Shown: one piece after another, positions 6,100 to 57,324 of the stretch | How the letters are laid out: each line of letters begins with the position of its first letter | Position numbering within the stretch: the first letter of the stretch is position 1 | Assembly (NCBI GenBank): GCA_001972305.1 | Contig: BDDD01000118.1 | Span: 394,060 to 458,059 of the forward strand | Length of the DNA stretch: 64,000 nucleotides | Direction: 5' to 3' | DNA from: Cephalotus follicularis | Lineage: Eukaryota > Streptophyta > Magnoliopsida > Oxalidales > Cephalotaceae | Made by a program: the position numbers and the translations under genes | Notes under the pieces: generated by a model | What the model was told of the DNA's origin: nothing | The model's input: the letters and a program-made list of their open reading frames with translations, nothing else | The model's database searches: none

Positions 6100-6370
6100 T
6101 AACCGTCGACGCTTCAGAAACAAGCGTCGACGCTATGGACATATGAAGAATGAGCTCTATTTTCGCCATAAACATCGACGCCATGATTCGTTGTATGTGA
6201 GAATGGACACACGTAGCGTTGACGCCTGAGGTTCCTACCTCAAAGCATCGACGCCAAGGGAATAAGCGTTGACGCTAAGAGTTAAGCGGCGACGCTTAAG
6301 TGATTGGATTGAACGTTGACGCCTAGAGTAGACGTTAACGGCTAAGAGAACTGATATAAACGTGGACGTC
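6100..6370 (+). repeat. Cluster of GCGTCGACGC-type palindromes
   Basis: Imperfect palindromes follow each other at irregular spacing: CCGTCGACGCTT, AAGCGTCGACGC, CATCGACGCC, AGCGTTGACGCC, GCATCGACGCC, AGCGTTGACGCT, GCGGCGACGCTTAA. The same block is at 11970-12250 in the 3' LTR. Variants are mostly C-T or G-A changes from a GCGTCGACGC core. Confidence 0.8.
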
Positions 6371-6596
6371 TAGAGTTAGGTGATGATGCCAAAAGAGTCT
6401 GTTCGCATTTTGAGCATATGGTTACTTGCATATAACTGTGGATTGGTCAAGCTTTCCTAGCTTTGTGCTGGTTAGCGTCGATGTGACTGTGCATTGAAAC
6501 GAGGTTTCAAAGGACTGTTACATATTTTGAATAAATATGTTTTGACAAGTACTTTATATTACATAAATTACTTGAAATGGATTGAAAGACTTTGAT

Positions 6597-7139
6597 GACT
6601 ACCAAGCTCTGTTGAGTAAGTAGCCAAGACTGTGAATTGTTTTAAAAGGTCTGATATACATTTGGGAATGTATGGTTTACAAGTATTATATTTATTAATA
6701 ATTACTTGTAATGGATTGATTGACCATGGTTGGCTGCTAAGCTCTGTTGAGTAAGTAGTCAGGAACCTCCCTACTAAGCTCTGTTGAGTAAGTAGCCGAA
6801 GATTCCATATACGGTAGCTACTAAGATCTGTTGAGTAAGTAGCTAGGGTTTCCCATAAAATGGTTGCTAAGCTCTGTTGAGTAAGTATCTAGGGTTTCCC
6901 ATATAATGGTTACTATGCTCTGTTGAGTAAGTAGACAGGGACTCCCTTTTGGGTTACTAAGCATCGTTGTGTAAGTAACCGGTTGCTAAGCACTGCTGTG
7001 TAAGCAACTTGAATTGGATTGTTTGTCCGATGTGACTGATTGATTGTTGTGGCAGTTACTAAACGCAGAGCGGAAGTAACCGGGTTACTAAACACAGAGT
7101 GGAAGTGACCAGGTGCTAAACACAGAGTGGAAGCATCCC
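6597..7139 (+). repeat. Tandem array of small hairpins in the 5' LTR
   Basis: Irregular tandem units with a near-constant loop (AAGCTCTGTTGAGTA, later AAGCACTGTTGTGTA and AAACACAGAGTGGA) flanked by short inverted arms. Arms differ between units yet pair within each unit, for example TAGCTACT/AGTAGCTA (6815-6845), GGTTACT/AGTAACC (6952-6980), GTTGCT/AGCAAC (6982-7008) and GTTACT/AGTAAC (7055-7080). Some units have decayed stems. The 3' LTR version at 12472-13142 has more units. Confidence 0.85.
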
Positions 7140-7843
7140 TGTTTAAAGTGTTGTCATTGGTGGCATGATTGATCGATTGATTGACTGAGTGATTGTTTGT
7201 CCGTTGTGAGATGTTTGACTGTATCGGATTGTTTTGTCCGTCGTGACATGACTGTATTGGATTGGATTGATTTGTCCTCTGTGACATGTTTGATTGGATT
7301 GATGGGTCCGCAGTGACCTGATTGATAATTTGTATGGTTATAGCCACTTGGCATAGTCGTACCTTTTGGCCCGTATACATATATACGTACATATATATAT
7401 GTGTATACATATCGTGTATTGCATCTTGGTGCATTCATGTCATGTCATTCATTATCGTTGTCCCCAAAGTGCATTTATATTTTCTCTACTTAGCCGAGTG
7501 AGGACAAAGGCTAACCCCCTACAATTTCAGATTGATTTCAGGTTGATGCAGCGGATTGTTACCGTTGAGCTCCGTGGAGCGAATGAAGTTTTATGTTGTT
7601 TTTACTTTTGAGAAATGTTAATGGATCATTGTAATAAATGAATCGATGTATTGATGATGTTTATCGTTGTAGCATGTAGTATAAAATGCATGTTACGTTA
7701 TAAATCGGCTTATATTTAAATGCTTCCGGAAGTGTTAATGGATATGGAAAGTTTTAAATTTATGGTAAATTGCATAAGCCGGATTTAATTGTTGATTGCC
7801 ACCACTATATATATGTCGGTTGTGAAACGGGGTGTGACAACAG

Positions 7844-7855
7844 TGGTATCAGAGC
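7844..7855 (+). promoter_or_regulatory. Primer binding site (initiator tRNA-Met type)
   Basis: TGGTATCAGAGC, four bases after the 5' LTR. It is the standard plant primer site complementary to the 3' end of initiator methionine tRNA, used to start minus-strand synthesis. Confidence 0.92.
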
Positions 7856-8004
7856 TTATATTCCTTTTATAAGCTGTCGCTGGGATACTATCCTCGACAA
7901 GTAAATAATAGGATGAAGGAACTTGTCCAGGCTAATAGGTTCCTTGGCAATTAACAATTGTTTCCTTGAGATGATTAATCATCATCTTCCTTAAAGGAAA
8001 AGAA

Positions 8005-8230
8005 ATGGACGGAAGGAGAAGACGCAGAAGGCCTTGAGCTGCTAATGGAAATGTTCCTAAGGAAGTAAATGACAGAACGGACCTTATGAGCCGTATAGCG
8101 GATTGCTTCCAACAGCAGATGGCTGCGAATGCTGCAAATGTGGAGGATATGCGTCGATTGTACGCACAAGCATAGCCACAACACATGATTCTTGACCTTT
8201 TTACGCGGCATGATGGGAACCGCTTTGGAA
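8005..8230 (+). pseudogene. Relic Tekay-type gag N-terminus
   Basis: From an ATG at 8005 the frame reads MDGRRRRRRP, a stop, then DLMSRIADCFQQQMAANAAN and VEDMRRLYAQA, a stop, PQH. This matches the start of gag in elements A (MDRRRTRARAR..YYFQQQMAFNRANAEEMRQYHAQA) and B (MDRRRDRRGRRR..LFQQQIQANAAHMEQMRQMYEA). It breaks off near 8230 and no capsid core or nucleocapsid follows. It shows descent from a coding Tekay-type chromovirus. Confidence 0.8.
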
Positions 8231-10543: not shown

Positions 10544-10556
10544 AAGGAGGGGAGGA
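10544..10556 (+). promoter_or_regulatory. Polypurine tract
   Basis: AAGGAGGGGAGGA directly before the TG of the 3' LTR, the expected primer for plus-strand synthesis. Confidence 0.9.
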
Positions 10557-10806
10557 TGTAACGCCCCGAATTTCATAAATAATTATTATGAAATTTGTGC
10601 GTGTACAGTCGTGATAAAATCGATAGAGCCCGGAGTAATAAAAAGGCATTACGCATTTAAGTCGTAATCGTGTTAGCTAAGACGGCTAATAAAACCTATT
10701 TTTAATGCACGACAATAAAGCCCGAATGTTTGCATTTTTATTGCGATTATTTTGGTGGTCGTTCGGATAATTTATGTTGCGATTTGCGGAAAAATCGGGA
10801 GCCGAA

Positions 10807-10835
10807 CCTTAGTATTTTACCAGAAAATACTAAGG
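10807..10835 (+). promoter_or_regulatory. LTR stem-loop (3' LTR copy)
   Basis: Same 12-bp stem and ACCAG loop as 4935-4963. Confidence 0.75.
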
Positions 10836-11354
10836 AGGAAGCAAAATAATAAAAGGAGGGAGGGAGAGACACGGACGCATCACGCGCCCGTGCAAGAAAG
10901 AGGCAGCGGCGCTCTGTGCGCCCGCGCTAGAGAGAGTGCAAGAGAGAGTGGGAGAGAGATCGGAGCAGAGGGAGAGAGAGCATGCCGGAGCCAGCCACCG
11001 GACCGGGAGAGCACGACGGTCAACCCAAGCACGCCACCGACCGGTAACCTCTCCCCCTTCCCCTCTTTTCTCTTCTTTTTTCTTCTTATGCCCGCCACTG
11101 TCGCGCCTCTTCCCGGAGTTTCCCGGCATCGTTAGCGTCGCGGATGGCGTGGGTTATGGTGTAGAAGGCCCGCTCTACCCATTTCGACCAACGGTGAGGC
11201 GTGATTCGGCCAGAAACAGCCGGAATCAGTTGACTGAGTTGACTCAGCGAGTCGACTCACTGTCGCCTGAGACCGCGCGTTTGGCGCCGAGTCTCGGCGA
11301 GTCACGGGCATAGATGTGTATAATTGGTGAATGTGTGGCATTTTTGGGTGGTGA

Positions 11355-11374
11355 CCGGACCTGTTGAGGTCCGG
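11355..11374 (+). promoter_or_regulatory. GTTG tetraloop hairpin (3' LTR copy)
   Basis: Same 8-bp stem as 5483-5502. Confidence 0.65.
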
Positions 11375-12471
11375 CAAGTTGACTCAGTGAGTCACAACTC
11401 ACTGCCGGCCGTGGCGCATCGTTCGGCACCGATTCCCGGCGAGTCGTGAGCGGTTCTGTGCAGACCGTTCAATGTGGAACCCGTTGATGGGTGTTTCGCA
11501 AGCTGAATGAATTGGCCTGAACCCGGCCGGCGTTTCGGTGACACAATGTTTTGTGTGTCGAGCATAACGGAATTGTGTTCTATGTGCAGTGTGCGAGTGG
11601 CAATTGGATTTGGCATTGAGGAATTGATCAATTGGCGACAATCGGGTTCGGTTCGACGGTTATTGAGAAAGGTTCGACAAATTGAACATGCGGCTTGACT
11701 TTGCTGCTATTGTTGTGATTCCTAACTTGGAATCAGAGGTAGGGGTAGTTGTAGGGAATTTATATATGAAGATTTGAGTTCAATCGTAATGAGTGTTCAT
11801 TTGATCAAATGCATGGATTATGAATTGTGTGATTCTGTTAGGGTTGCTATGAATAGTTAACTTGTAATGCATATTGCGTTTTACAATGATTGCAGATTGA
11901 ATGGTATGCGTTGTATGCTTTCAATTCTATTGGTCTTGTGACGTGTTGAAGGAACCATGTTTTGGTTCGCTTAACCGTCGACGCTTAGGAAAGAAGGGTC
12001 GACGCTATGGACCGTTATACAAAGAATGAGCTCTGTTTTCGCGATAAACATCGACGCCATGATTCGTTGTATGTGAGAATGGACACACGTAGCGTTGACG
12101 CCTGAGGTTCCTACCTCAAAGCATCGATGCCAAGGGAATAAGCGTTGACGCTAAGAGTTAAGCGGCGACGCTTAAGTGATTGGATTGAACATTGATGCCT
12201 AGAGTAGACGTTAACGGCTAAGAGAACTGATATAAACGTGGACGTGTAGAGTTAGGTGATGATGCCAGAAGAGTCTGTTCGCTTTTTGAGCATATGGTTA
12301 CTTGCATATTACTGTGGATTGGTCGAGCTTTCCTAGCTTTGTGTCGGTTAGCGTCGATGTGACTGTGGTTTGAAACGAGGTTTCAAAGGACTGTTACATA
12401 TTTTGAATAAATATGTTTTGAAAAGTACTTTATATTACATAAATTACTTGAAATGGATTGAAAGACTTTGA

Positions 12472-13142
12472 TGACTACTAAGCTCTGTTGAGTAAGTAGC
12501 CAAGACTGTGAATTGTTTTAAAAGGACTGATGTACATTTTGGAATGTATGGTTTACAAGTATTATATTTATTAATAATTACTTATAATGGATTGATTGAT
12601 CGTGGTTGGCTGCTAAGCTCTGTTGAGTAAGTAGTCAGGAACCTCCCTACTAAGCTCTGTTGAGTAAGTCGCCGGAGATTCCATATCGGTAGGTACTAAG
12701 CTCTGTTGAGTAAGTAGCTAGGGTTTCCCATAAAATGGTTGCTAAACTCTGTTGAGTAAGTAGCCAGGGACTCCCTTTTGGGTTACTAAGCTCTGTTGAG
12801 TAAGTAGCCAGGAACTCCACTACTAAGCTCTGTTGAGTAAGTAGTCGGAGATTCCATATACGGAAGCTACTAAGCTCTGTTGAGTAAGAAGCTAGGGTTT
12901 CCCATATAATGGATACTAAGCTCTGTTGAGTAAGTAGCCAGGGACTCCCTTTTGGGTTACTAAGCACTGTTGTGTAAGTAACCAGTTGCTAAGCACTATT
13001 GTGTAAGCAACTTGAATTGGATTGTTTGTCCGATGTGACTGATTGATTGTTGTGGCGGTTACTAAACGCAGAGCGGAAGTAACCGGGTTGCTAAACATAT
13101 AGTGGAAGTGACCGGGTGCTAAACACAGAGTGGAAGCATCCC
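12472..13142 (+). repeat. Tandem hairpin array in the 3' LTR
   Basis: Counterpart of 6597-7139 with additional units around 12780-12960. One unit has an 8-bp stem, CGGTTACT/AGTAACCG (13056-13085), where the 5' LTR unit has a 6-bp stem. Confidence 0.85.
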
Positions 13143-13851
13143 CGTTTAAAGTGTTGTCCTTTGTGGCATGATTGATCGATTGATGATTGATTGACTGAGT
13201 GATTGTTTGTCCGTTGTGACATGTTTGACTGTATCGGATTGTTTTGTCCGCCGTGACATGACTGTATTGGATGTGATTGTTTTTTTCCTCTGTGACATGT
13301 TTGATTGGATTGATGGGTCCGCAGTGACCTGATTGATAATTTTTATGGTTATAGCCACTTGGCATAGTCGTACCTTTTGGCCCGTATACATATATACGTA
13401 CATATATATATGTGTATACATATCGCGTATTGCATAATGGTGCATTCATTTCATGTCATTTATTATCGTTGTCCCCAAAGTGCATTTATATTTTCTCTAC
13501 TTAGCCGAGTGAGGACAAAGGCTAACCCCCTGCAATTTCAGATTGATTTCAGGTTGATGCAGCGGATTGTTACCGTTGATCTCCGTGGAGCGAATGAAGT
13601 TTTATGTTGTTTTCACTTTTGAGAAATGTTAATGGATCATTGTAACAAATGAATCAATGTATTGATGATGTTTATCGTTGTAGCATGTAGTATGGGATGC
13701 ATGTTACGTTATAATTCGGCTTATATTTAAATGCTTCCGTAAGTTGTTAATGGATATGGAAGGTTTTAAATTTATGGTAAATTGCATAAGCCAGATTTAA
13801 TTGTTGATTGCCACCACTATATATATGTCAGTTGTGAAACGGGGTGTGACA

Positions 13852-14140: not shown

Positions 14141-14917
14141 TGGGAATTGTATATCATACCCATAATCCAGATTCGGACCAAGGGTGTTACAATGTAGAAC
14201 AACAAATTTTCTAAACATAATGTAGCGGAAGAAAAACTTTAACACCATAAAACAAGGTCCAAAACAGGGAATCCGCAGGTTAAGGATCACCACATCATAA
14301 ACATAATTTAATTGGCATCACCAATTCATGCAATGGTGACATTCAAACATGGCAACATAGAGGGAGACAAGGAGTTCATACTATATGGTGATGGCTCCTT
14401 CGTTCTTTGCCGGTTCACGCTTGCGTAGACTCCCTCAGAGTTCTCTTCCAAGTCAAGCTCTTACTGCTTCAAGCAACAGGCTCCTCGGGCTAACAAGAAA
14501 GACAGTCACTGTTTTGTTCCCTCTCACTCTCAAAGCTCACAAAGAGAAGATTGGAATTAACCAATTGTTAATAGCAATCCACCCTAGATAAGCAACAAAC
14601 TTGGTGAAGAAATCTAAGAAGGGATTTGCTTAGTGTAAGTGGTTCTTTTGACCTCAAACTTGCCCAGAAAAGCTCTGCCAAAAGACCCGCATGATGCCTT
14701 GGTCATTTCCTCTGGTTTTATGCCAACTTCTTTTTCACTCACTCTCACGTTGCACTCACTCCACCATGAAGTGATCATGCTGCTTCCATTAAGGAATCAT
14801 GAAACCATGATCCCAACGTGTTCCCCATCATGCTCAGATGGGAGAAAATCGCTGGGAGTGGGAGAGAGAAAATGTGCGCACGTCTTGGGTATGATTAGGG
14901 CCCCATGTTGCACACAA

Positions 14918-15045
14918 AGCATCGACACTTTCTACAAAGGCGTTGACGCTTTGACATAGTTTAGCGTTAACGCTTACACCAAGGGCGTTGACTCTTTGAG
15001 CATGGTTTGGCGTCGACGCTTACACCAAGAGCGTCGACGCTTTAA
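14918..15045 (-). repeat. Cluster of GCGTCGACGCTT palindromes in a copia LTR
   Basis: Six motifs: ATCGACACTTT, GCGTTGACGCTT, AGCGTTAACGCTT, GCGTTGACTCTT, GCGTCGACGCTT, AGCGTCGACGCTT. It is the same theme as in the gypsy-derived LTR at 6100-6370, though the LTRs are otherwise unrelated. Confidence 0.85.
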
Positions 15046-15851
15046 AATCATATAGGCATATTCACATGTCTACAATGAGTCCAACTCATTCTTGTATGAC
15101 ACATGTTTACTTCTCCAAGAAGTTAACCACTACATCATATGAATAGGTCCTACCCATTCAAGTGATGTTGCATATCCACCCAACCGATCTTTGATTTTAT
15201 AAATTTCACCAAGACTTAAATATGTCCAACAGATTTATGAAAAAATCATTATCGGACAGGGACCCTTTAAAATCTTGGTTAGAATCGGTGGTGTTAATAA
15301 ATTACTGAAATACCCCTAGGGTTCGGTTAAGCCACTCTAAATGGTCCCATACCTATTTAAATGCTCCTGAACTAATATCCAATATTATCCAGATGAAAAA
15401 TTAATCTAATTAATTTTCTCATAATTTATTACACACCGCCGTAATGCAAGACTTTCTAAGTTGTCAGTTTGCGTGCACTATAATCCCTTGTCATACTTAG
15501 CCCCGATTGAGGACTAGAGTAAGGATACGTTTCAACCTTAGATTATACCTCAATACCTAAAATATCTGATCATCACTAGGACCTTTGGTAGACTCTTCGG
15601 AAATCTAATTTCCAGTCCACCTCAACCTTGGCGAAGGATTTCATAAGTCCATAGTACAATCAGATCATGATAGAGCCGATCACCTTCGCTCAGGTGTGAC
15701 AATTCCATATTGCGGACTCGCTTACATTCGTATACATTCAATCATACCTAAAGACCACCCGATTTCCAGCCTCGCGCAAGAACTGGGTAAGGTGGAGATC
15801 AAAGTATAACCGTCTCCATACAATATAGAGCAGTCGCTCAGGGGATCAAAC

Positions 15852-25928: not shown

Positions 25929-27731
25929 TGTAACATCCCCGATCCGAGTTCACTAAATGCTCAAAGTGAACTTCGAGGATTCGGTGCATTACTGGTGGGG
26001 GTGAACATTAAGTCGTTTAACAATCTCGATGTTATATCATATTCAGTAACTTCATAACTTCAAAATATACTTACAACGTTAACACTGAACTTTAGAATCA
26101 TCATACTTCTCATTTGAAACCACTATATACCATAACAATCATTTCTAGTACCTTTACATTTATACACAACTTGTCATATTACATTTCTCAGGGGAATTAT
26201 CGACTTATTACATCATAGAAATAGTTTATACATAACATAATTGCTTCAAAAACATCTTTTACAAACTTCTTCTAAAGCTTGATATCCCATGTTCATCAAT
26301 TTCCTAGAAATTTTATTTGAAAACAAAAACATTGAAAGGAGTGAGCTCAAATATCCTAGTAAGACTTTGATAATTAAAAAAAAAACATTTTATCACATTC
26401 ATTTTTATAATCATTTCTCGTAGATTAGAAACTTTTTAAACAACTGAGGGGTTATATAAACTCAAACAACCCAACCGAACCATTGTTTCACCGGGCCATT
26501 GTGCACTCCCCGATTACTATCCTTACATCACATGCATGTCCGCAAGCACTCTACGCTCTTAACATTATCCCTATTTGGATCGCAATCCAAGAGTTGTTCA
26601 TCTTAGTTTATTAACCTTTTACATTTCATAAATCATTTCTCAATACTTTGAGTATTCAGCTTAAAGATGTTCACAAAACAGGATCGTACAACATTTAAAA
26701 AATTGATATTTCATATAGAAGCATTATTTTTCAGAGGAAACACAAAGCAGTAAAGTTATACCTAACATCTCAAATATTTCAGAATGATAAAGTTCATAGT
26801 TTTTGGTTGAGAAAAGAAGCTGAAATGAATTTTTAAAGTGACTGTTACTGCACGTAAGCAGAAAATGAGCATTAATTTTCAATGAAATATTTCGTCCCGA
26901 AATCGGTAAAATCTCGAGATACATGAAACATAAAAGTTATAGAGGACATATTTGAGTTTTCAAAATAGTTAGCCATTCAAATTTTCATTAAGAATCGAGA
27001 GAGATATGCTTAAAGAAATTTACTACAAAATATCAAAAGTAAAACAGAGGAATGAAAGAGTAAGATTTTCCTTACTTTGATTAATCTCCTTCTCTCTTTT
27101 TGAATTAACTCAGACAATGTGACTAAGCTCATGCCATTCAGGGGTATTTATAGCAGCTAGAGCCGCCCCCCCTTGCATGAGTCACCATGCCCCTCCATCA
27201 AAATCATGCCACCTAGCATTCTAGTTGCCCATGTGATGATATTAGCATTTCTCTCTCTTTCTAGCTTGGTGACACATGTCATTCTCATCATGGTAAGCTT
27301 GACACTTGGCTAAATATCTAGATTCATAACTCCCTAGAATGCCACATGTCCCTTAATTATAATCATTTATTCACAAAGAGAGAATTAAGCTAAACTCTTT
27401 AATAGGTCTGCAGGCAAAGCGCCGGCGCTTTGAAATGAAGCATTGCAGCTTACGAGTTTTGTCATAGGCAAATTTCCATTTGCTTTCAAAGCGTCATTGG
27501 TTGAACCAAAAGCGTCGATGCTTATCTACAAAGCACTACCACTTTACTTAAACCGTCGGCGCTTTGACGCTTTGAGACATCCATCGACGCTTAAGGTAAC
27601 CGTCGACGCTTTAAGCTAGGCAGTCGACGCTTTACACAGAATATGCAAAAAATAGCAAAACAAGATGGGATTCGAACAAGAAATATTCTATAACAATATT
27701 ATAACAACTTAATGAGAATTTCGGTCATTAC
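25929..27731 (-). mobile_element. Solo LTR, 1.80 kb, with perfect target duplication
   Basis: TGTAACATCCCC...GGTCATTACA flanked by TCCTG at 25924-25928 and 27732-27736. On the minus strand it starts TGTAATGACCG and ends GGGGATGTTACA, so it lies in minus orientation. It contains a GCGTCGACGC cluster at 27415-27640 and no coding region. Confidence 0.88.
27415..27640 (-). repeat. Cluster of GTCGACGC-type motifs in a solo LTR
   Basis: Words such as AAGCGCCGGCGCTTT, AGCGTCGATGCTT, CCGTCGGCGCTTT, CATCGACGCTTAAG, CCGTCGACGCTTTAAG and CAGTCGACGCTTT follow each other in about 220 bases. Confidence 0.8.
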
Positions 27732-27736
27732 ATCCT

Positions 27737-29396: not shown

Positions 29397-31545
29397 TGTT
29401 AGATATAGTGACCCGACAAGCCATTGGATGGACTGACGTTTTATATTTGTTCTTGTATGAAACAATCTTATTCCTTATATATGATGCGTGATAATTTTGT
29501 TATGGCTATATCACTTGTATTTTATCACATAATTGAAGTAGTTTATTAATTAGCTACTTATACTTGTGATGCCCTGACATAAGGTTGGATGCCTGGCATG
29601 GAGGCTGTGAGACTGGTTACCTTATTCCTTATGTCAAATTAGTTCCAAGTCATAGGTTCACTTTGTGGGCATTAGTGAACCGGATAGACTTGCGCGTATG
29701 TTGCCTCATGGAATTGGAGGATGGATTCTCTCACTACCATCTATGTTGGACACTAGGGCAAATATGGGGTGCGCGCTGGGAGCGTGTACACTGAACAGGA
29801 CCCGCGTAGGAGACACTATTTGGATAGTCGCTATTCTCGTGTCAGTAGTGACTCCTACTTGTTTCGGTCCTGTATAAGTGATCATTACTTAGCGAGTTCT
29901 TAAACTCGTCTGATCCTTAGACCTGAGCAACTACTCTATATTGTATGGAGATGGTTATGCTTTGATCTCCACCTTACGCAGGGCTGGAAATCGGGTGTTC
30001 TTTGGGTATGATCTAATCTCGAATATAAGTGAGTGCGCAATATGGGATTGTCACACCTGAGTGAAGGTGATCGGCCCTATTATGGTCTGATTATACTTTG
30101 GACTTATGAAATCCTTGGCCAAGGTTGAGGTTTACTGGAAATTAGATTTCTGCAGAGTTTACCAAAGGTCATAGTAATGATCAGATATTTTAGCCATTGA
30201 GGTATTATCTTGGGTTGACACATATCCTTACCCTAGACCTCAATCGGGGCCAAGCATGACAAGGGATTATAGTACATGCGAACTGTCGACTTAGAATGTC
30301 TAGGGTTTATAAGGTGTATGGGAAACTTAATTAGATTAATTTTTCCATCTGGATACTATTAGATATTATTCTAATAGCATTTAAATTTGTCAATGACCAT
30401 TTAGAATGGCTAAACGGGACCCTAGGGGTATTTCGATAATTTATGAACACATCTTATTTTAACCAAGATTTTAAAGTGTCCCTGCCTTATAATGATTAGT
30501 TCTTTGATATGTTGGACATATTAAGTCTTGGTGTCAAATATCGGTTATATGGATTTTGCATTTTGTGGAAACACATATGCTTGATCTTACTTAACCAATA
30601 TTCGAAGGGTACATGAGATCACTAAAAGAGTTAGACACTTAATACTTCACTGGCCAGATAAAGCATCAACGTCTTTTAGAAAGACGTCGATGCTTAAAAT
30701 TTTTAAAGATGTCGATGTCTTTTAGAAAGCGTCGATGTGTTTTAGTGCCACATTGCATGAGCGTCGATGTCCTTTGGAAGGCGTCGACGTCTTTGAGCAG
30801 AACGTGCAACCTGTGCACAAGCTCACTTCGTGGGCACGTTTTCTCTCTCATCTCCAGCAACCATCTCCCATTCTTGCATGTTATGGGAACGTGGGATCAT
30901 GGACATAGACTCCCTAGGAGTGAGGACATTGATCCTAAGTGAATGGGAGAGTGGGAAAAAGAAGAAGGGGGCTAGTAATAAGCATTTTCTGTAGAAAATG
31001 AAGTAGAGTTTTTGGAGAGTTTTTGCTGGGCAAGGATGGCTCGAATTTCTCTTTGCAGATTGTGAGTGTTCCATTCATCCGTGATACACCAAGCAAGAGC
31101 TTATCTAGGGTGGATTGATTATTAACTTCATTGGTCAATATCAATTTACCTTTTCTGAACTTAGTGAGAGAGAGAGAGTTTATACAATTTGTTCTGGGTT
31201 ATTGCTGGTTGGATTACTTGTTGTTCCAGTGACTTGGAGAATATTAAAGAGGGAATCTACTCAAGCTTGTAGCGGCAAAGAAAGAAGGAGCCTTCACCCG
31301 CTGGTATATCTCTTGGTCCTTCTCTTCTTGCCATGCTTGTGTGTCACCATTGTTTGATATGGTGACACCAATTCAATTCTGATGATGATGTGGTAATCCA
31401 TGTGGTCTGTGGACATGCCTTATGGACTATTTTACTTTTTAATTGGGTGTTCTTCCGCTGCCATTATATATGTTTTTGTTTTGTTCTACACCTTATTTGC
31501 CTAAGTCCGTTGTTGGCATCGGATTCGGTTTTTCCGTTTCCATCA
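29397..31545 (+). mobile_element. 5' LTR of copia C
   Basis: 2149 bp, TGTTAGATATAGTG to TTTCCATCA, preceded by TTGGT (29392-29396) and followed by a primer site. The matching 3' end at 50237 is followed by TTGGT again. It carries a hairpin and GTCGATG-type cluster at 30661-30800. Confidence 0.9.
30661..30800 (+). repeat. Hairpin and ACGTCGATGTC cluster in copia C LTR
   Basis: Arms AAGCATCAACGTCTTT (30661-30676) and AAAGACGTCGATGCTT (30680-30695) pair over 15 of 16 positions with a 3-base loop. Further motifs follow: GATGTCGATGTC, GCGTCGATGTG, GCGTCGATGTC, GCGTCGACGTC. Confidence 0.75.
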
Positions 31546-31839: not shown

Positions 31840-32090
31840 ATAGACGTCGACATTGTTGATAGACGTCGATGTCTTGTTCATGTTTCCAGGAAACGCGCCG
31901 ATGTTCTTGATAGACGTCGATGTCTTGTTCATCATTTCCAGGAAACACGTCGATGTTCTTGATGAACATCGACGCCTTGTTCATCATTCCTAGGAAACGC
32001 GTCGATGATGTTGATAAACGTCGACGTCTTTTTCAACAGTTTTCATGAAATGCGTCGATGCCTTCTGGGAAGCGTCGACGTCTTTTATTA
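31840..32090 (+). repeat. Tandem GACGTCGATGTC repeats in copia C leader
   Basis: About six irregular units of roughly 35-45 bases: GACGTCGACATTG, GACGTCGATGTCTTGTTC, GCGCCGATGTTC, GACGTCGATGTCTTGTTC, ACGTCGATGTTC, GAACATCGACGCC, GCGTCGATGATG, ACGTCGACGTC, with AGGAAACGC between several. It extends the GTCGAC theme into an internal leader. Confidence 0.8.
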
Positions 32091-35113: not shown

Positions 35114-36427
35114 TGTCACACCCCGTTCAGGAGAAACGTAACATTAAAGCGGTAAAGGAAATTAACATAAAGTACAGCTCATGCAAAAACCATAAAACTT
35201 AAAACTTTTCCAAAGTACAACAGTTGCGGAAGCATAACATAACATAAGCTGTAAACTCGTAACGTGCGTCCCATACCGCACGCTACCCCAAATAATTCGA
35301 CATTGTTAATCGCCTATAAACGGAGCGTGAATTACAGTACAAGATTAAAATCTTTCAGAAACAAAACTATAACAACGGTACATCCGAAAACCATAACCAA
35401 CATAGGTTTAATACAAAGCAAGAGAATAAGCAAAAACAAGATCATAACAACTTGCTCTTCATCCATGTCAGTCCAATAGGTCCACTGCATCAATCTGTAA
35501 AGTAGGGGGTTAGCCTTTGTCCTCACTCGGCTAAGTCATAAAAGCAGTTCGGGATTAACATTAAATGCATGTCATGATATGAATGCATAAATGATGCAGT
35601 GTAGGAAAACCAATTCATATATATATATGAGAAATATATATATTTTAACAGTACAGTAAAATAACAGTGGGTACATATATAAGAAAATATATGTATGCAG
35701 GATCAGTACAGTAGTAACCCGGCCAGGGCTACATCAACAAACACAGGAATATCTGTGAAGGACCAACAAGCAGTACAGGACATCCACATAGGACTACAAC
35801 AGGCAGGATGTCCACATAGGACCACAACAGGCAGTATGTGTAGCACCGCCAACTCCTGGCCCCACGCTACACTCCCACTCCGGTCCCTACATCAGGCAAC
35901 CGAGCGAGGCAATAGTACAGTAAGTTACCCAGCCATACTCCTGGCCCCTAGGTCAACCCTCCACTAGTCGACACTGGCAGTCTCTGCCATGCAACTAGTG
36001 GTTCAAGCAAAAACACATAGCGATTCACAGAGCAAACAATGAATTCAAGCAGTAACAGTACAGTAAATAGTAATGATCGATTTGATCCACAACAGGCAGG
36101 TTATTTCCAAAATGTTTCCAAAAGTGACAACATTTGAAATATATATTTTCAATGGAAAATACTTTTAAACAGTTTCAGTAGTGTGAATTGTTTATCAATC
36201 CGTTCGAAAATACGTTATTTAACCAATACATATTTTCATACTCAAAATATCACATTCCGAGTTCATATATGCATTTCTAAGTACCACAACTTTAGAAACC
36301 ATAAACAATTCACAAACAGTATACAATCAGGTAGTAAACAGTACATTTGCAATGCATACAAATGCTCAGATGCATCCTAGCAGGAATCGGGATCGTTTCG
36401 CATTGTTTTAAGCAAGCAGCAGTCCAA

Positions 36428-36700
36428 CCAGTCGACTGGAATCCTCACCAGTCGACTGTTCTGGGTCGCGCAGTATGGGTAGTCGACTGGTTCCTTCTAC
36501 CAGTCGACTATCTATTAGGCAGCCGGCTGTTGTTCTTCAACAGTCGACTGTTCCAGTACTCACACACGAGAAAATTCCCAGATTTCCATCTTCTGGGCAG
36601 TAGGAAGTATGAACAGTTGACTGCTTTCCATAGGCAGTCGACTGGTATCAATGAGTAGTCGACTGCCTTCCTTCGATAGTTGGCTGCTCTGCGAACCAGT
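36428..36700 (-). repeat. CAGTCGACTG palindrome cluster, block 1
   Basis: About ten motifs, including CCAGTCGACTGG, CCAGTCGACTGTT, TAGTCGACTGG, CCAGTCGACTA, CAGCCGGCTG, CAGTCGACTG, CAGTTGACTG, TAGTCGACTG and TAGTTGGCTG. The counterpart block in the 5' LTR is 48165-48405. Confidence 0.9.
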
Positions 36701-37504
36701 GGCATACAAATCGATCTAACCACTCCAACAGTTCATGGTAAGCAGATAAATCAAGCTCAGGGATAGGAATATAATCACAGGTTGTCATATAATCCATATA
36801 ACAACACATTCAACATGTATTTCAACATGCAACCAATTCCATGCTAAGGTTCAACATGTATGAACTTAATCACAATGATTCACAGTAACAAGCATAACAG
36901 CTCCCAAAAACAGTAGCAATTACATCCTAAAACCAGTAGCTACAAGTCACATAACCAGGCATTGCAATTCATGGAACATGCAGTAAATTTAAACTCAAAG
37001 TGACATTACAACTTTCCCCTACCTTTGATTCCAAGTTAGGAATCTGTAAGTCCACCTCTTTTCATTCCAATCGGTGGCTTTTAGAGCTCCCCAGAAGCTC
37101 CAACTCCAAGTCCAGTAGCTCCAAGGATAGCTCTCACCTTGAGCTCCAAGCTTCAACAATGGACAACCACTCTCTTTTCTCTTTTCTTTGTGGTTTTCTC
37201 TCTACTGTCTCTGTGATTCTCAACTCAACAGTACCAGGACGAGAGAGAGTGAGTGGGAGGGTTTTATGCAGAGCTTTTCCTCTCTTTCTTCTTCCCCTCC
37301 TCACATGGCACTAAATGCCATATTCTTCCACTCACATGCAAGCACACACACACAAGGCCAATTTCTCTGCCCCATGAGGTCCTGCATGATTCACAGGTGT
37401 CTCTTCCTTCCATCCTCTCGGCTGCATGAAGCACAGATGGCCTCCCCTTCCACTGTCAGTTATAACATGTGATTCCTGTCACATGCAATAAAAACAGAGC
37501 ATGA

Positions 37505-37660
37505 TCCAGTCGGCTACCTTTCCCTGGCAGTCGGCTGGTCACCTGGAAGTCTGTTGCCAAGTGTCACGACAGTTGGCCAGTCGACTGGTTCATCACACCA
37601 GTCGACTGCCCCCATATGCAGCCATCCAGTCGGCTGGTCCTCCCTACCAGTCGACTGCCC
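37505..37660 (-). repeat. CAGTCGACTG palindrome cluster, block 2
   Basis: CAGTCGGCTA, CAGTCGGCTGG, CAGTTGGCCAGTCGACTGG, CCAGTCGACTGCC, CAGTCGGCTGG, CCAGTCGACTGCC. The counterpart in the 5' LTR is 49224-49375. Confidence 0.9.
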
Positions 37661-37808
37661 CCAGTAAATACCAAGCATTCACACTTCTAAGCACATAAAA
37701 TATTTAAAACAACAACATCTGATTTGGAAACCCATCATTTTATTAATTCCACAAATAAAGTACAATTACATTGTGAAATTTTAATACATGAAAATCTTGG
37801 GCGTTACA

Positions 37809-37821
37809 TCCACCCCCCCTT
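37809..37821 (-). promoter_or_regulatory. Polypurine tract of element A
   Basis: On the minus strand AAGGGGGGGTGGA directly before the 3' LTR, preceded by GAGGACGAAATTCC, a block common to plant chromoviruses. Confidence 0.88.
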
Positions 37822-42702: not shown

Positions 42703-43448
42703 CGTTGTCACACCCTGTTTTCCAAATTGAGACAACATATAAAGTGGTAAGGCAATCAACATAAAATAATCAAGCTCATGCGAAAATACCAACAATTAAA
42801 AACCTTCAATAGCGGAAGCAACAACTTAATTCAGCCGAATCAAACACACATCACGCATCCCATACTACGTGATGCCCAACAAGTTTATAAATAATCCCAA
42901 AACATGACTGTTGACCGCCCAAAATGGAGCGTGAAAAAGATACAATACAGATAGCAAATATCCAATGTTACAAAATATGAGTAACCATGATCATTGTTCA
43001 ATAACCAAGAACATAAACAAGAAGATAACAAGTCTTCTCTTTAAGTCTCCGTGCATTCTCCATGTCAAGACCACTCCATCAATCTGTTACAGTAGGGGTT
43101 AGCCTTTGTCCTCACTCGGCTAAGTGAATAAACCCATAAAATACAGTTCGAGTCATATGATAATGGGTATCATGAATGAATGCACTATGATGAGCCATGA
43201 CATGCAATTTTCATAGTAAAAATACCTCTGTATATACACATAAAAATATATGCATGCTCACAGTACAAGTATAACTCATAAGTTATATCACACAGGCAGT
43301 AAATATGTTCCCAAAAGGAACCAGACAAACCAGTCGTCATGACCGTCGCCACCTCCTGGCCCCAACGTCATGCACTCTTACTCCATCCCAAACGGTTTTG
43401 GAGCAAGTCCTCAGTAAGTTGTTTAGCATGGCGACTAAACCAACACAG

Positions 43449-43598
43449 GTTATTAGCACAGTGGCTAATAATCAACAGGTTATTAGCACGATGGCTAATA
43501 ATCAACAAGTTATTAGCACGATGGCCAATAATCAACAAGTTATTAGCACGATGGCCAATAATCAACAAGTTATTAGCACGATGGCCAATAATCAACAA
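43449..43598 (+). repeat. 30-bp minisatellite of hairpins, five units
   Basis: Five head-to-tail units of 30 bases, GTTATTAGCACGATGGCTAA plus TAATCAACAA. Each unit can form a stem TTATTAGC/GCTAATAA around a 6-base loop. In the last three units GCTAATAA is GCCAATAA, costing one pair. The open frames here are the repeat translated. Confidence 0.92.
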
Positions 43599-44559
43599 GC
43601 ACAAGCATTTCACAGTACAAGTCAAGCAATTACATATGATTACTTGATCGAATATATTTGAGTAAAATATACTTTTCCGTCCACAGGTTGTAATAAGTCA
43701 TAAGCTTAAAACAATACATTTCTCTTGTCTTTGGAAATACTTCCCCAATCATTTTGAAAAAAATATATATATTCATAATTTATACATTTTTGCAAATTTC
43801 ATTTGGTTTCATAATCGAACCTTTAAAACATTTTTCTGTCATTGGAAATACTTCCCCAATCATTTCAAAAATATATACATTCATATGTGGATAAATATAC
43901 ATTTTCGTACCCAAATGATCATAATAATCATGCAAGCTTTTCAAAATGGTTTAACACTTTCAGGAAGCAACCATAATGCAAATCACAGTAACAATGCAAA
44001 CATATGCTCAGAATGCATCTATGTTTGTTTCTAAAGTCGTTTCGGGTCTAACGGTTCTCATTCGTGCGAAATTCTACTGTCCAGGAGGAAAGACGTCGAT
44101 GTCATTCCTTAAGGCGTCCAGCTCCAAGATCCCTTAGCAACTGCTACCCACGAGCTCAAACCTCAAGCTTCAGGCAAACTCAACAATGGTGGCTCACACT
44201 CACTGTTTTCTTCCCTCTCTTTCTTCTGGTGTTTTTAAAACGAGAGAGATAAGTGGGGAGGAATATCCTTATGCAGAAGGCTTCCTCATAACCTCTTCCT
44301 TTTGTCATTTCACAGGCCACCCCGAGATCTCTCCCACTTCCAGGTTTTATAAATTTCTTTTTATTTTCTAATCTTCCTTTTTGCAGGTTGCATGATAGGG
44401 TGGCACAATTCCTTGCATGTTCCATGTGAGGGTAGGTTTTAGTGCTCATGGTCAGCATACCAAAATGCTCAACACGTCGAATAGCACTTGTAAAGGCGTT
44501 AGGTAAAGCCTCTAAACAATTCCCCTTGCATGTTACTCTGCCAGAGAAAAAGCTAGAAA

Positions 44560-44740
44560 GACGTTCCTACAAAGGCGTCGACGTCTTTCCTTGGACGTCG
44601 ATGTCTTTTCCATTTTTGTAAGAAAGTGTCGATACCTTCTCTAAAGGTCGACGTGTATGCCCGAACATTCACGCGTATCTCAAACCTCAAAGCCGTCGAA
44701 GTCTTTCCAAAAGAAGTCGATGTCATTATTCCAAAACAAT
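44560..44740 (-). repeat. GTCGACGTC cluster in element B LTR
   Basis: GCGTCGACGTCTTTCC, GACGTCGATGTCTTTTCC, GTGTCGATACCTTC, GGTCGACGTG, GCCGTCGAAGTCTTTCC, AAGTCGATGTC. An isolated copy lies at 44089-44104. The motif is the copia C type (ACGTCGATGTCTTT), here in a gypsy LTR. Confidence 0.8.
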
Positions 44741-44898
44741 GCCGTTTCAAGCTTTGACATACACATTCCATTTCCAAAGCCATAAGTAGGGTTTGTGAGT
44801 CATCCTTTGAGTTCAAAAGCTCAACATTCTCATAAAATCAAGTTTAATGATTACATCATAAATCGAAATATTACATCAGGAAAATATCGGGCGTTACA

Positions 44899-48164: not shown

Positions 48165-48405
48165 CAGTCGACTGGAATCCTCACCAGTCGACTGTTCTGG
48201 GTCGAGCAGTATGGGTAGTCGACTGGTTCCTTCTACCAATCGACTGTCCATTAGGCAGTTGGCTGTTGTTCTTCAACAGTCGACTGTTCCAGTACTCACA
48301 CACGAGAGAATTCCCAGATTTCCATCTTCTGGGCAGTAGGAAGTATGAAGAGTCGACTGCTTTCCATAGGCAGTCGACTGCCTTCCTTTGGCAGTCGGCT
48401 GCTCT
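48165..48405 (-). repeat. CAGTCGACTG cluster, 5' LTR block 1
   Basis: CCAGTCGACTGG, CCAGTCGACTG, TAGTCGACTGG, CAATCGACTG, CAGTTGGCTG, CAGTCGACTG, GAGTCGACTG, CAGTCGACTG, CAGTCGGCTG. It has fewer units than 36428-36700, so the block differs by small insertions or deletions between the two LTRs. Confidence 0.9.
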
Positions 48406-49223: not shown

Positions 49224-49375
49224 CAGTTGGCTGCCTTTCCCTGGCAGTCGACTGGTCGCCTGGCAGTCTGTTGCCATGTGTCACGACAGTTGGCAAGTCG
49301 ACTGGTTCATCCCACCAGTCGACTGCCCCCATATGCAGCCATCCAGTCGGCTGGTCCTCCCTACCAGTCGACTGT
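49224..49375 (-). repeat. CAGTCGACTG cluster, 5' LTR block 2
   Basis: CAGTTGGCTG, CAGTCGACTGG, AAGTCGACTGG, CCAGTCGACTGCC, CAGTCGGCTGG, CCAGTCGACTG. Confidence 0.9.
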
Positions 49376-49525
49376 CCCCAGTAAATACCAAGCATTCACA
49401 CTTCTAAGCACATAAAAGATTTAAAACAACAACATCCGATTCGGAAACCCATCATTTTATTAATTCCATAAATAAAGTACAATTACATTGTGAAATTTTA
49501 ATACATGAAAATCTCGGGCGTTCCA

Positions 49526-50242: not shown

Positions 50243-52279
50243 ATCACCTATGCATGCACTGGTGATACACAAACATGGCAACCAAGAGAGAGAAGGAGTT
50301 TATCGTTCAGTGTACGCTCCTTCGTCTTTTCCGCTTCAAGTTGTGAAGAATCCCTCTTTGTTGCCCTCCAATACGTAGTCCTACTACTCCAAGCAACAAT
50401 GATTCCATACCAGCAAGGAATAATACAGAGACTATTCTCTCTCTCTCTCTCTCTCTCTCTCAATGCTTACAAAGAGAAGATTGGAATTGACAAGTGTTTT
50501 CAATCACAATCCACCCCATGTTATCTTAAAGCTTGGTACAAAAATCAGTAAAAAGGGATAACACACTAAATATGTTCTCAATATGCCCAACAACTTACAG
50601 AACCAAAGTTCCCCCCATGGTTCCTCCATTCTTTTTCTGGTTTTATGCCAGCCTCCCATTCTCTCTCTCTCACGTTGCATGTCCACCACTACGTGGTGAT
50701 CATGCTCCTTACTCTAAGGAATGCACAAAGCATGATCCCCACGTCCTCCCTATCATGCACAGACAAGAGAAAAACGCTTGGAGTGGGAGAGAAAATCAGG
50801 CGAAAGTCACACGCCCACATCAGGCACCCACATTGCCATTATAAGCGTCGACGTTTTTCAATAAGTGCTGACACTTAGATGGCTAAGCATCGACGCCATT
50901 CGACATGGTATTGACGCTTATACGTGGCTTAAGCATCGACACTATTCCAAAAGGCGTCGACGCTTTGAAGGCTGATAGGCATATATAGTCTAACTCATTT
51001 TAGTGATGCCACATATCCCTTCGAATATTGATTAAATAAGATCAAGCAAATATGTTTTCACAAATTGCAAAATCTACACAACCGATATTTGATTTTATAA
51101 ATTTCACCAAGACTTAATATGTCCAACATATTTATGAACTAATCATTATCGGGCAGGGACCCTATAAAATTTTGATTATGATCGGTGGTGTTCATAAATT
51201 ACTGAAATGCCCATAGGGTTCGGTTAAGCCATTCTAAATAGTCCTAGACCTATTTAAATGCTCCTGGACTAATATCCAATATTATCCATATGAAAAATTA
51301 ATTTAATTAATTTTCTCATAATTTATTTCACACCTCTGTATCACGAGACTTTCTAAGTTATCGGTTCGCGTGTACTATAATCCCTTGTCATACTTAGCCC
51401 CGATTGAGGTCTAGGGTAAGGATACGTGTCAACCCTAGATAATACCTCAATGCCTAAAATATTAGATTATTACTAGGACCTTTGGTAGTCTCTCCGGAAA
51501 TCTAATTTCCAGTCCACCTCAACCTTGGCCAAGGATTTCATAAGTCCATAGTATAATCAGACCATGATAGAGTCGATCACCTTCACTCAGGTGTGACAAT
51601 TCCATATTGCGTAGTCGCTTACATTCGTATAGATTCAATCATACCAAAAGACTACCCGATTGTCATCCCTGTGCAAGAACTGGTTAAGGTGGAGATCAAA
51701 GTATAACCGTCTCCATACAATATAGAGCAATCGCTCAGGTCTAAGGATCATACGAGTTCGAAAACTCGCTAAGTGACTAATACTTGTGCACAACCCTAAC
51801 AAGTAGGAGTCACTACTGATACGAGAATAGTGACTATCCAAATAGTGTCTCCTACGCAGGTCATGTTCAGTGTACATGCTCCCAGCGAGCATCCCATATA
51901 TGCCCTAGTGTCCCAACACAGATGGTAGTAAGAGAATCCATCCTCCAATTCCATAAACAGGCAACATACGCGCAAGTCTATCTGGTTCACTAATGCCCAC
52001 AAAGTGAACCTATGACTTGGAATTAATTCAACATAAGGAATAAGGTAGCCAATCTCACTGCCTCCATGCTTGGCATCCAACCTTATGTTAGGGCATGACA
52101 AATGTAAGTAGGAAATATAAAACTACTTCCATTACGTGATAAAACAAAAGTGATATTGCCATAAAATATATAAACAAAGTAGCACTTGTCATATATCAGG
52201 AATAAGATTGTTTATATATACATGGATAGATAAAACACGAAAACCCATCCAATGGCTTGTTGGGTTATTCTATCTAACA
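50243..52279 (-). mobile_element. Copia D 3' LTR, right piece
   Basis: Resumes the LTR of copia D interrupted at 29396. On the minus strand it starts TGTTAGATAGAATAACCC at 52279. It contains a (CT)n run at about 50434-50462 and a GCGTCGACGC cluster at 50844-50965. It lacks the solo LTR found in the homologous LTR at 14141-17460. Confidence 0.85.
50844..50965 (-). repeat. GCGTCGACG cluster in copia D LTR
   Basis: AAGCGTCGACGTTTTT, AAGTGCTGACACTTA, AAGCATCGACGCCATT, GGTATTGACGCTTA, AAGCATCGACACTATT, GGCGTCGACGCTTT. Confidence 0.85.
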
Positions 52280-55718: not shown

Positions 55719-56126
55719 TGTAATGACCAAAAATTTTGAATGATAATGTTAAGGAGTATGTTCTTTTACTTGGTATCTTGTTTGCATCATGATTGGTGTG
55801 AATGTCATGTTGAAAGATTTGACGGAATAGTTTAAAGTGCCGACGGTGTACGGTAAAATGGTAGAGCTTTAATGTTCTCTAAGGAACCACTAAAACGATG
55901 ATTCGTAACGTCGACAAACTAAGACAAATTCGCAGAAGTGCCGACTGTTTCTTAAAACGGCGATGCTTTAAAGGTAAACCATCGACGCTTGGACCTCTTC
56001 CAACGCCGGTTAAAAGTAGGGGGTTTTCAACTTGGACAAACTCCTCCAACCGACGAAGGTTCGACAAAAGCAGTAGCGCTTGGATGAAACCGACGATGCT
56101 CTAAATGTAAGCTTCGGTGCTTTGAA
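55719..56126 (+). mobile_element. LTR 5' fragment with GTCGAC-type motifs
   Basis: Starts TGTAATGACCAAAAATTTTG, like the minus-strand start TGTAATGACCGAAATTCTC of the solo LTR at 25929-27731. Weak motifs (ACGTCGACA, CATCGACGCTT, AACGGCGATGCTTT) fill 55845-56120. It breaks off at the next fragment. Confidence 0.5.
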
Positions 56127-56350
56127 TGATGGAATCGGATAAACCGAATCCGGAGCCAAAAACGGACTTAGGCATATAGGGTGTGGAACAAAAATAATCA
56201 TACAAAATGGCAGCGGAAGAACACCCAATAAAAGCAAAAACAGTCCATTATGGTATGTCCATAGACCACATGGATCTCCACATCATTACAATAATTGAAT
56301 TGGTGTCACCATGGCATGCAATGGTGACACACAAGCTTGGCAATTGTTCA
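56127..56350 (-). mobile_element. Copia-family LTR end fragment
   Basis: Begins TGATGGAATCGGATAAACCG, the reverse of the copia C LTR end, and continues through GGACTTAGGCATATAGGGTG, ATGGCAGCGGAAGAACACCC and GAATTGGTGTCACCAT, matching 31545 back to about 31330 in reverse. It is truncated near 56350. Confidence 0.8.
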
Positions 56351-56362
56351 CGAAAAAAAGAA

Positions 56363-57324
56363 TGATGTTTTAAAATTTATAGCCGCAAGTGCACGGATCA
56401 TGCAGTAACAGGTCGAACGCAGGGAAACGTTAAACTAGTTGTAATCTATCAAACCTAAGCGAAGTATGCAAATATGGAAGCAAAACTATCAAGAACTATT
56501 CTTAATTATGCAAAATAAAATAAATAATTGAAAACAGGCAGAAAACAAGGTTGGATTTTACAAGATAAATTCGCTCAATGTAATTCACAACAAAGATAGG
56601 CTAAGATATGAAATGAGAGCTTTTGAAATGAACTTTGAATTTGAGTGATTGTTGTATGATTTCTTTGAATTCTTTTGTAATATGAAATCTCTTGTGTTGC
56701 TCCTCTTATTTCTCTTCAAAAAACCTTTGTATATATGTGTTTTTGCCTCAGAGATACGTTGGGTATTGTCTTCAAAGTTGTTGCATCAAAGACGGCTCAT
56801 TAAAGCTCTGTCAGAATTCTTTTCAGCGTGCAAAGCGTCGACAGTCTCCTTCAAAGCGCCGACGCTTATGTGGCCGTTAGGTACTTCAATTTGAAATTGT
56901 CAGCTCAAAGCGCAGGCGTTCTAAGCGTTGGAGTCGACCGGCACCTCAAAGCGCTGACGCTTAAGTTTGGGCGTCGACGCTTGGGCCAAATTGAATTCCA
57001 ATTGAGCGCACTGGTTTACTGAGCAGACGCTTTGTCTCAAGGCGCTGACGCTTTGTGTCAAAGCGCAGACACTTGAATCTTGGGCGTCGACGGTTTGAGT
57101 ATTTGTTCTTCTTCTCAAAGTGCTTCACCGGTAGACGCTTTGTTCATTGTCTCGACTGTCTCTCAAAGCGCTGACGCTTTATTCCTGAGTGTCGATGGTT
57201 TGCCCTGTTTCTGCAGTTTTCTTGTGCTGTTTTGTGCATTCCATGGTTTTCTTGCACATCAAGAAACTTTGTTAAACACAAATATGTTATCATCAAAACT
57301 AGGATTGAGACATAAATGTCAACA
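56363..57324 (-). mobile_element. 3' LTR of the SIRE-type copia element
   Basis: On the minus strand it starts TGTTGACATTTATGTC at 57324, right after the polypurine tract, as in SIRE/Maximus elements. The left edge near 56363 is approximate. 56827-57195 holds GCGTCGACGC-type motifs (AAAGCGTCGACAG, AAAGCGCCGACGCTTA, GCGTCGACGCTTGG, AAGGCGCTGACGCTTTG). Confidence 0.7.

Follow-up and report, generated by a model that had tools for sequence, protein, structure and literature searches.

Palindromic GTCGAC boxes with two-turn spacing in Sirevirus-type and Tekay-type retrotransposons of Cephalotus follicularis

Sireviruses carry a palindromic repeated motif (RM) upstream of the TATA box, in the upper part of their long terminal repeats (LTRs), with further copies ahead of ENV (Bousios et al., 2010; PMC2829016; here and below, published systems are described from excerpts of the papers cited). 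The RM of a grape element is CGGTCGACCG, and the motif was called Sirevirus-specific, being absent from the non-Sirevirus copia elements studied there (PMC2829016). Here we describe a 64,000-nucleotide stretch of the Cephalotus follicularis genome (contig BDDD01000118.1, positions 394,060 to 458,059, forward strand; hereafter the window), in which palindromic boxes centred on GTCGAC lie in the LTRs of both Sirevirus-type copia and Tekay-type gypsy elements. A first-pass annotation of this window, made from the sequence alone, had noted clusters of such palindromes and knew of no described system that explains them; Sirevirus LTRs, however, have been described with high-copy palindromic repeated motifs whose grape version has the core GTCGAC (PMC2829016). 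A known feature is extended here to a gypsy lineage, and the phenomenon is far larger than the window shows.

The boxes share the GTCGAC core with the grape RM, and one window element (F4) has the RM layout. By contrast, they mostly lack the CGG-CCG core signature, to which Tnd-1 is a published exception (PMC2829016), and they are also present in gypsy LTRs. Neither the two-turn spacing nor the themes common to both superfamilies, described below, appear in PMC2829016, as far as its excerpts go. In maize, Sirevirus LTR palindromes (CACCGGACNNNGTCCGGTG; Bousios et al., 2016) cluster in the LTR cis-region (PMC10760457, PMC5311732) and are the commonest motif in structured Helitron regions (10.7%, PMC10760457); they have another core and were read there as RNA structure and a source of small RNAs. 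VANC proteins of VANDAL transposons target short motifs in non-coding tandem repeats, and the unrelated AT9TSD1 has VANC6 motifs too (PMC5735166). Finding motifs of one VANC in an unrelated element family resembles the present case, but the motifs shown in that source are non-palindromic, belong to DNA transposons and have a known element-encoded binder. Lastly, RYCGAC is the CBFHV motif, beside the DRE/CRT motif RCCGAC (PMC4482647); GTCGAC, GCCGAC, ATCGAC and ACCGAC all match RYCGAC, although a lone core site leaves symmetric arms and fixed spacing unexplained. In the open-access literature searched, we found gypsy LTRs nowhere described as carrying GTCGAC arrays; that two superfamilies have core, arms and two-turn spacing in common, and on such a scale, is new as far as that search reaches.

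Abundance, form and spacing of the boxes

The 63,444 non-N bases of the window contain 59 exact GTCGAC sites (about 58 had been counted by eye), against 6.6 expected from dinucleotide frequencies (first-order), the largest excess among the 64 palindromic hexamers. Markov simulations in local 2-kb blocks (100 for each order) gave 6.5 ± 2.7 sites at order 1 (maximum 13), 7.2 ± 2.6 at order 2 (maximum 14) and 26.9 ± 5.1 at order 3 (maximum 42), so the enrichment survives correction for composition and exceeds every simulation. Once the second LTR copies of two elements are dropped, 46 sites are left. Palindromic arms of at least 4, 5 and 6 flank 44, 29 and 12 of the window sites, respectively, compared with 1.35, 0.4 and 0 simulated sites. 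Fifty-five of the 59 lie within the 32,234 bp assigned to an LTR, a leader or the linker preceding ENV, and four in the other 31,766 bp. The excess recurs outside the window: twenty 10-kb stretches of the genome assembly (1,577,397,061 bases), placed by hand regardless of content and including 16,561 N, hold 102 sites where 14.0 are expected (7.3-fold), again the top palindrome excess, with none in seven of the twenty. Chance or composition as the cause is ruled out by the window count, the simulations and this sample. Nine of the ten intervals named in the first-pass annotation contain exact GTCGAC, but the tenth (34936-35070) has only a GTCGAT variant at 34988, and the densest arrays (36431-37650, 48167-49367 and 62180-63319) were missing from its list.

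The boxes are dyads of 12-14 bp, and the impression that their flanks follow set themes was borne out, as three arm themes were found: AAGC-GTCGAC-GCTT (theme A), AAAGAC-GTCGAT/C-GTCTTT plus its reverse (theme B) and CCA-GTCGAC-TGG (theme C). Among 57 non-redundant sites, picked by hand from the fuller list of window boxes, left and right arms agree in 143 pairs, compared with 87 ± 8 when halves are shuffled.

Neighbouring boxes keep a distance of about two helical turns. In the 57-site list, 20 of the 21 neighbour gaps of 14-30 bp measure 19-21 bp and the remaining one 28. Genome-wide, 176,266 GTCGAC pairs lie 19-23 bp apart (control, 1,828) and 19,129 lie 24-28 bp apart (control, 463); by our arithmetic, random placement at a density of 102 per 200 kb would yield about 2,000 pairs at 19-23 bp. 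The single box AAGCGTCGACGCTT occurs at 18,108 places, compared with 15 for a reversed control. The first 100 listed pairs at 19-23 bp, all from contig C1, comprise 64 distinct ones with gaps of 21 bp (33 pairs), 20 bp (17), 22 bp (9), 19 bp (4) and 23 bp (1). Within the 15-nt spacers of the 33 distinct gap-21 pairs, positions 5-9 hold 0.01-0.13 bit; a fixed spacing around so little information in the spacer middle indicates that the spacing is kept and the spacer mostly not. At distances above 23 bp, all GTCGAC pairs of the 200-kb set have a best period of 10.4-10.5 bp, matched in strength by none of 2,000 simulations, although the pairs are non-independent and the evidence for a helical phase past 21 bp is no more than suggestive.

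Two observations stand apart. By eye, an ACGTG-like (G-box-like) sequence sits in mid-spacer of many GTCGAC pairs spaced by about 28 bp, as though two boxes flanked the site of another factor. A separate tandem array at 22244-22558 repeats every 21 bp in 11 registered copies, with no exact GTCGAC.

Carrier elements and placement of the boxes

The gypsy elements of the window and their boxes are as follows.

4685..7839, plus strand: left LTR of F1, a large retrotransposon derivative (LARD), with TGTAACACCCC...GGGGTGTGACA ends, a primer-binding site (PBS) TGGTATCAGAGC at 7844, and blocks common with F3 and B
10557-13851: second LTR copy of F1 (LTR pair 91.6% identity)
6105..6295, plus strand: F1 box array, theme AAGCGTCGACGCTT, with a 21-bp pair at 6105/6126; copy at 11977-12171
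966..993, plus strand: partial F1-like LTR with three GTCGAC with CGAGTCGACTC arms; single homologues at 5379 and 11251
35114..37808, minus strand: 3' LTR of F3; polypurine tract (PPT) at 37809-37820
45960-49525, minus strand: 5' LTR of F3, with an N run inside
37508..37655, minus strand: F3 cluster I (U3), theme CCAGYCGACTGG, 156-297 bp from the LTR start; 5' LTR copy at about 49247-49372
36431..36663, minus strand: F3 cluster II, 1148-1375 bp from the LTR start, downstream of a AGGTAGGGG block; 5' LTR copy at 48167-48399
42706..44898, minus strand: LTR of element B, with LTR ends, PBS and blocks common with F1 and F3
44577-44652 (249-319 bp from the LTR start) and 44097, minus strand: element B boxes, theme AAAGACRTCGAYGTCTTT
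61300..63527, minus strand: F6 LTR, probably Tekay-type; start near 63527 (PPT-like end and LTR start by eye), the 61300 end not established
63270-63345 (cluster I) and 62159-62247 (cluster II), minus strand: F6 clusters, theme C

The lineage name Tekay and its hallmarks, which we take to be TGTAACRCCC...GGGGTGTGACA ends, an initiator methionine tRNA (iMet) PBS and common LTR blocks, guided the assignment. F1, F3 and B show these Tekay/Del ends, PBS and blocks; F6 shows only a PPT-like end and LTR start. Between the F3 LTRs, Pfam matches include reverse transcriptase, RNase H, gag and RVP_2 domains, some of which belong to the nested element B; the 17 window open reading frames (ORFs) searched gave no Pfam match to an integrase. 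Since F1, F3 and B are gypsy elements by domains (F3) and by LTR ends and PBS, their boxes are RM-like rather than Sirevirus RMs. Two peculiarities of F3 were also seen. The N run in its 5' LTR (46708-47262), which may be a gap in the assembly or a tandem duplication, lies between flanks (46374-46707 and 47263-47597) that repeat each other at 89%, and F3 itself is inserted in the right LTR of F2a (35113/49526), where the flanks GCACG and GGACG resemble a target duplication with one change.

The copia-type carriers, and F5, are these.

56127..57324, minus strand: part of the F4 3' LTR, with a box array at 56837-57190 and PPT octamers at 57327, 57451 and 57514
59275..59465, minus strand: F4 box array ahead of ENV, between pol and the ENV-position ORF; aligns with the F4 LTR array
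57931..59184, minus strand: F4 ENV-position ORF with a Transposase_32 domain (PF20167)
59560..61359, minus strand: F4 pol fragment, RVT_2 (copia reverse transcriptase)
30660..30810, plus strand: F2a LTR array of about 21-bp units; PBS at 31547-31558 (one mismatch), right copy at 34936-35070
31846..32080, plus strand: F2a leader array, theme GACGTCGATGTC, about 290-520 bp after the PBS
14915..15055, minus strand: F2c array (theme A), related to F2b at 50847-50961
27415..27640, no strand assigned: F5 array, theme A, with a 21-bp pair at 27602/27623, in a possible solo LTR

F4 resembles the published Sirevirus layout closely. Its LTR stretch holds 10 core hexamers of the counted kinds and the array ahead of ENV four more, compared with the RM figure of at least 8 palindromic copies per element; this is a count of cores, whatever the full symmetry of each box. 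RM clusters begin 200-400 bp after the PPT junction, in the upper half of the LTR and before a TATA box; in F4, exact boxes lie at 236-485 bp from the LTR start, with a TATA-like sequence at 587, and the further copies at 59275-59465 are upstream of ENV. The CGG-CCG core, however, is lacking: by eye, the arms read AAAGCG...CGCTTT around TCGA, TCAG and similar centres. F2 is Sirevirus-like, with a copia gag, its PBS at 31547 and about 220 bp of LTR end 85% identical to F4, and locus L010 shows the published Sirevirus marks of four AGGGGGAG octamers, the last one followed by AT/TG. For F5, the interval 25929-27732, with a 5-bp repeat TCCTG, is one of two candidate solo LTRs. Sirevirus PPT/LTR junctions number 9,227 genome-wide (control, 37); four of the eight in the listed C1 stretch, read by hand, have a pair at 19-23 bp located 130-500 bp into the LTR, two of them with theme A and two with theme C. 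We also noted that one Cephalotus relative of the F4 ENV-position ORF (P0027) has a gypsy-type RNase H match, which may be a two-superfamily association or an artefact of nested insertion.

As the first-pass annotation held, the clusters occur in LTRs of unrelated elements, here from two superfamilies: copia of the Sirevirus type and gypsy of the Tekay type. The description of the carriers as unrelated families stands for these two superfamilies but not within them, where several families are related to each other. The LARD-like element, element B and the LTR at 36-37 kb have gypsy LTRs of one type, to which the LTR at 62-63 kb probably belongs too, and the copia LTRs form one Sirevirus-like family.

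Among Tekay-type carriers, theme A was found in F1, L007, L008 and L026, theme B in element B, L021 and L027, and theme C in F3, F6, L023, L030, L031, L033 and L035-L038. Sirevirus-type carriers have theme A in F4, F2c and L009, theme B in F2a and theme C in L010. All three themes are present in both Sirevirus-type and Tekay-type LTRs, with few loci on the Sirevirus side. As both superfamilies use identical boxes with all three kinds of arm, they probably respond to one factor or to its paralogues.

Placement was analyzed for 15 Tekay-type loci (L025-L039), each with 1.51 kb of LTR and the 1.5 kb preceding it, from a lineage with 6,959 PPT/LTR junctions genome-wide (control, 12). The LTR portions contain 53 exact boxes, in 13 of the 15, compared with four in the preceding portions. 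Twenty-one of the 53 lie at 100-400 bp (157-318), one at 400-800 bp and 31 beyond 800 bp, so that positions fall mostly at 150-330 and 800-1500 bp into the LTR; themes A, B and C are all present there. Box gaps of up to 30 bp in these LTRs are mostly 19-22 bp (64 of 75). Ten of these LTRs have a TATA-like box at 300-900 bp.

The second cluster is tied to a block, AGGTAGGGG, that looks like a splice donor and is found in 10 of the 15 LTRs as well as in F1, F3 and F6; it is absent in B, in whose LTR the block AGGTAGGG was not found either. Cluster II begins 145-361 bp past AGGTAGGGG in 12 of the 13 LTRs having the block and at 649 bp in the other (L028 has two blocks, of which the second was used), and no box lies within the 150 bp preceding the block in any of the 13. 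In the window, AGGTAGGGG is located near 5865 (F1), 37020 (F3) and 62390 (F6), between two arrays, where a spliced leader within the LTR is possible.

A proposed regulatory role and its alternatives

We consider it probable, from the pattern of sites, that the boxes are protein-binding regulatory arrays of LTR retrotransposons that act as double-stranded DNA and are recognized by the same factor, or by paralogues, in both superfamilies. A host factor, probably a symmetric dimer, would bind the 12-14 bp dyad with its GTCGAC-like core and drive transcription, and spacing by 20-21 bp, or two helical turns, would put neighbouring dimers on the same face of the DNA. One array would lie upstream of the promoter and a second in the transcribed leader behind the splice-donor-like block, while the Sirevirus F4 would have an additional array ahead of its ENV-position gene.

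How the arrays came to be shared was assessed by alignments with the boxes masked (104 window pairs, and a second set of 55 pairs). Only one window pair scores a z above 4, the F4 LTR array with the F4 array ahead of ENV (z 9.2); copia and gypsy arrays score at most 3.2 against each other, and F5 versus B gives 3.4. In the second set, F6 aligns with L012, another Tekay-type array (z 6.3); the highest score of a Sirevirus array against a Tekay-type one is z 3.6, a value that one shuffle in 200 also reached. Backbones of different superfamilies thus have no clear alignment after masking, in line with the first-pass annotation, and a single mobile repeat inserted into all of them is unsupported for the same reason. 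Copying does occur inside one element: the L010 LTR array (4480-4800) and its upstream array (7860-8180) are 97.8% identical over 320 bp, the gene between them being partly N, which suggests recent copying between the two regions. This copying, and the 14-bp themes common to both superfamilies, would fit one mobile cassette swapped between their LTRs via template switching or gene conversion. We regard such an exchange as unlikely, as the masked alignments give it no clear support: values of at most 3.2 for copia-gypsy pairs in the window, and 3.6 at best for Sirevirus-Tekay pairs, do not stand out given how many pairs were tested and may reflect at most a faint old similarity between superfamily arrays. 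Among the causes offered at first, repeated acquisition of a binding site fits best.

Neutral tandem duplication or slippage, with LTR repeats of about 21 bp that are palindromic by accident, appears very improbable. The F2 LTR arrays do resemble tandem units of about 21 bp by eye, and the two F3 LTRs differ more in box columns than elsewhere (0.082 versus 0.031), but the F1 LTRs differ less there (0.014 versus 0.032). Moreover, slippage would not readily give an identical core in the LTRs of two superfamilies, a fixed spacing around a spacer middle with little information, or boxes at fixed places in Tekay-type LTRs.

Imperfect boxes bear on whether DNA or RNA is the target. On the sense strand, window boxes have 27 A·C, 16 G·U and 20 other mismatches (four F5 sites, which lack an orientation, are omitted). 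Asymmetric cores in the 15 Tekay-type LTR stretches are GCCGAC 49, ATCGAC 33 and ACCGAC 11 on the sense side (93 of A·C type) versus the opposite forms GTCGGC 10, GTCGAT 8 and GTCGGT 1 (19 of G·U type), with GTTGAC (4) and GTCAAC (3) excluded. A stem in sense RNA would favour the GTCGGC/GTCGAT/GTCGGT set, which is the minority; double-stranded DNA is therefore favoured as the target, and consequences for small RNAs are still compatible with it.

That the boxes instead act as RNA, as hairpins diced into small RNAs or in RNA dimerisation or packaging, seems to us improbable, if somewhat less so than a swapped cassette. Five segments (theme C and F2) have strong predicted folds (z -8.0, -6.7, -5.3, -4.3 and -4.2), and small RNAs map to the maize Sirevirus palindromes (PMC10760457, PMC5311732). 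Against this, the F4 arrays fold weakly (z -1.7, -1.3 and -1.2), the sense strand has no G·U preference (though antisense RNA would show one), cluster I probably precedes the transcription start, judging from the TATA-like boxes, and hairpins need no fixed 21-bp spacing. An RNA hairpin as the selected feature is lowered by the absent G·U preference, despite the strong folding. Rfam gave no matches at gathering scores. Two further searches were also negative: none of 75 candidates from a protein search with a reading of one array had an E value up to 10, and a scan of viral contigs with a theme C pair returned zero. Integration into palindromes was set aside, as the excerpt of PMC6911290 reports no more than a weak preference and the arrays are located within LTRs.

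In place of a host factor, the elements themselves could encode an anti-silencing protein like VANC that binds the boxes and is exploited by both superfamilies; we hold this for very doubtful. The motif arrays of VANC in non-coding DNA and their sharing with the unrelated AT9TSD1 (PMC5735166) speak for it, as does the F4 array directly adjoining the ENV-position ORF upstream. However, no candidate binder came to light, the structure model of the ENV-position protein was unusable (mean pLDDT 36.5), and CpGs in boxes decay like others.

Several observations weigh against a DNA-binding host factor acting at these boxes. Regarding form, no arm covariation beyond the consensus was found inside single themes over the 57 sites (p 0.73, 0.09 and 0.40); as arms agree between themes but not beyond the consensus within them, the symmetry belongs to the theme, without compensating changes inside. 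Regarding spacing, positions 10 and 11 of the gap-21 spacers (n = 33) hold 0.43-0.49 bit, less than the spacer ends, which are part of the box arms, so the spacer is not wholly free; gaps of 9 and 13 bp separate F1 sites near 970, and 28-bp gaps also exist. The helical period beyond the 20-21 bp peak gave p 0.055 and 0.165 with duplicates removed, and p 0.25 or worse in the window alone. Regarding placement, two of the 15 Tekay-type LTRs have no exact box and five have no AGGTAGGGG block. The orientation of variants is reversed in F2 (sense GTCGAT 12, ATCGAC 1), opposite to Tekay-type LTRs, and hence follows no constant direction with respect to transcription; loci within a family are non-independent in these counts, and 15 of the 17 GCCGAC in Sirevirus segments come from two near-identical L010 arrays. 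Predicted RNA folding beats 200 of 200 shuffles in five of 12 segments, those of theme C and F2. CpG decay was 8/43 in boxes and 33/185 elsewhere (two LTR pairs), so that a sparing of CpGs, as a sign of low methylation, was not seen, and the excess difference in F3 box columns counts here as well.

Candidate factor and implications

With the protein-binding reading in mind, we considered which factor might be involved. The Tekay-type variants that match the CRT/DRE core RYCGAC on the sense strand outnumber the opposite ones by 93 to 19, and the CBF-type family could on this basis be a candidate. It is a lead only, because a single site explains neither arms nor spacing and most of the variants are also simple transitions of GTCGAC.

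A broader picture, which we put forward tentatively and judge somewhat less likely true than false, is one host system with three paralogous arm specificities, adopted independently by Sirevirus-type and Tekay-type elements. It would form a genome-wide control network, common to competing elements, of more than 170,000 two-turn pairs, in which LTRs switch themes and keep the core, the spacing and the positions at promoter and leader donor. If one factor controls both superfamilies, a single input may switch the transcription of a large part of the retrotransposons of a 1.6-Gb genome, and the more than 170,000 spaced sites could also titrate that factor away from genes. The purpose of the Sirevirus palindromes becomes a directly testable question.

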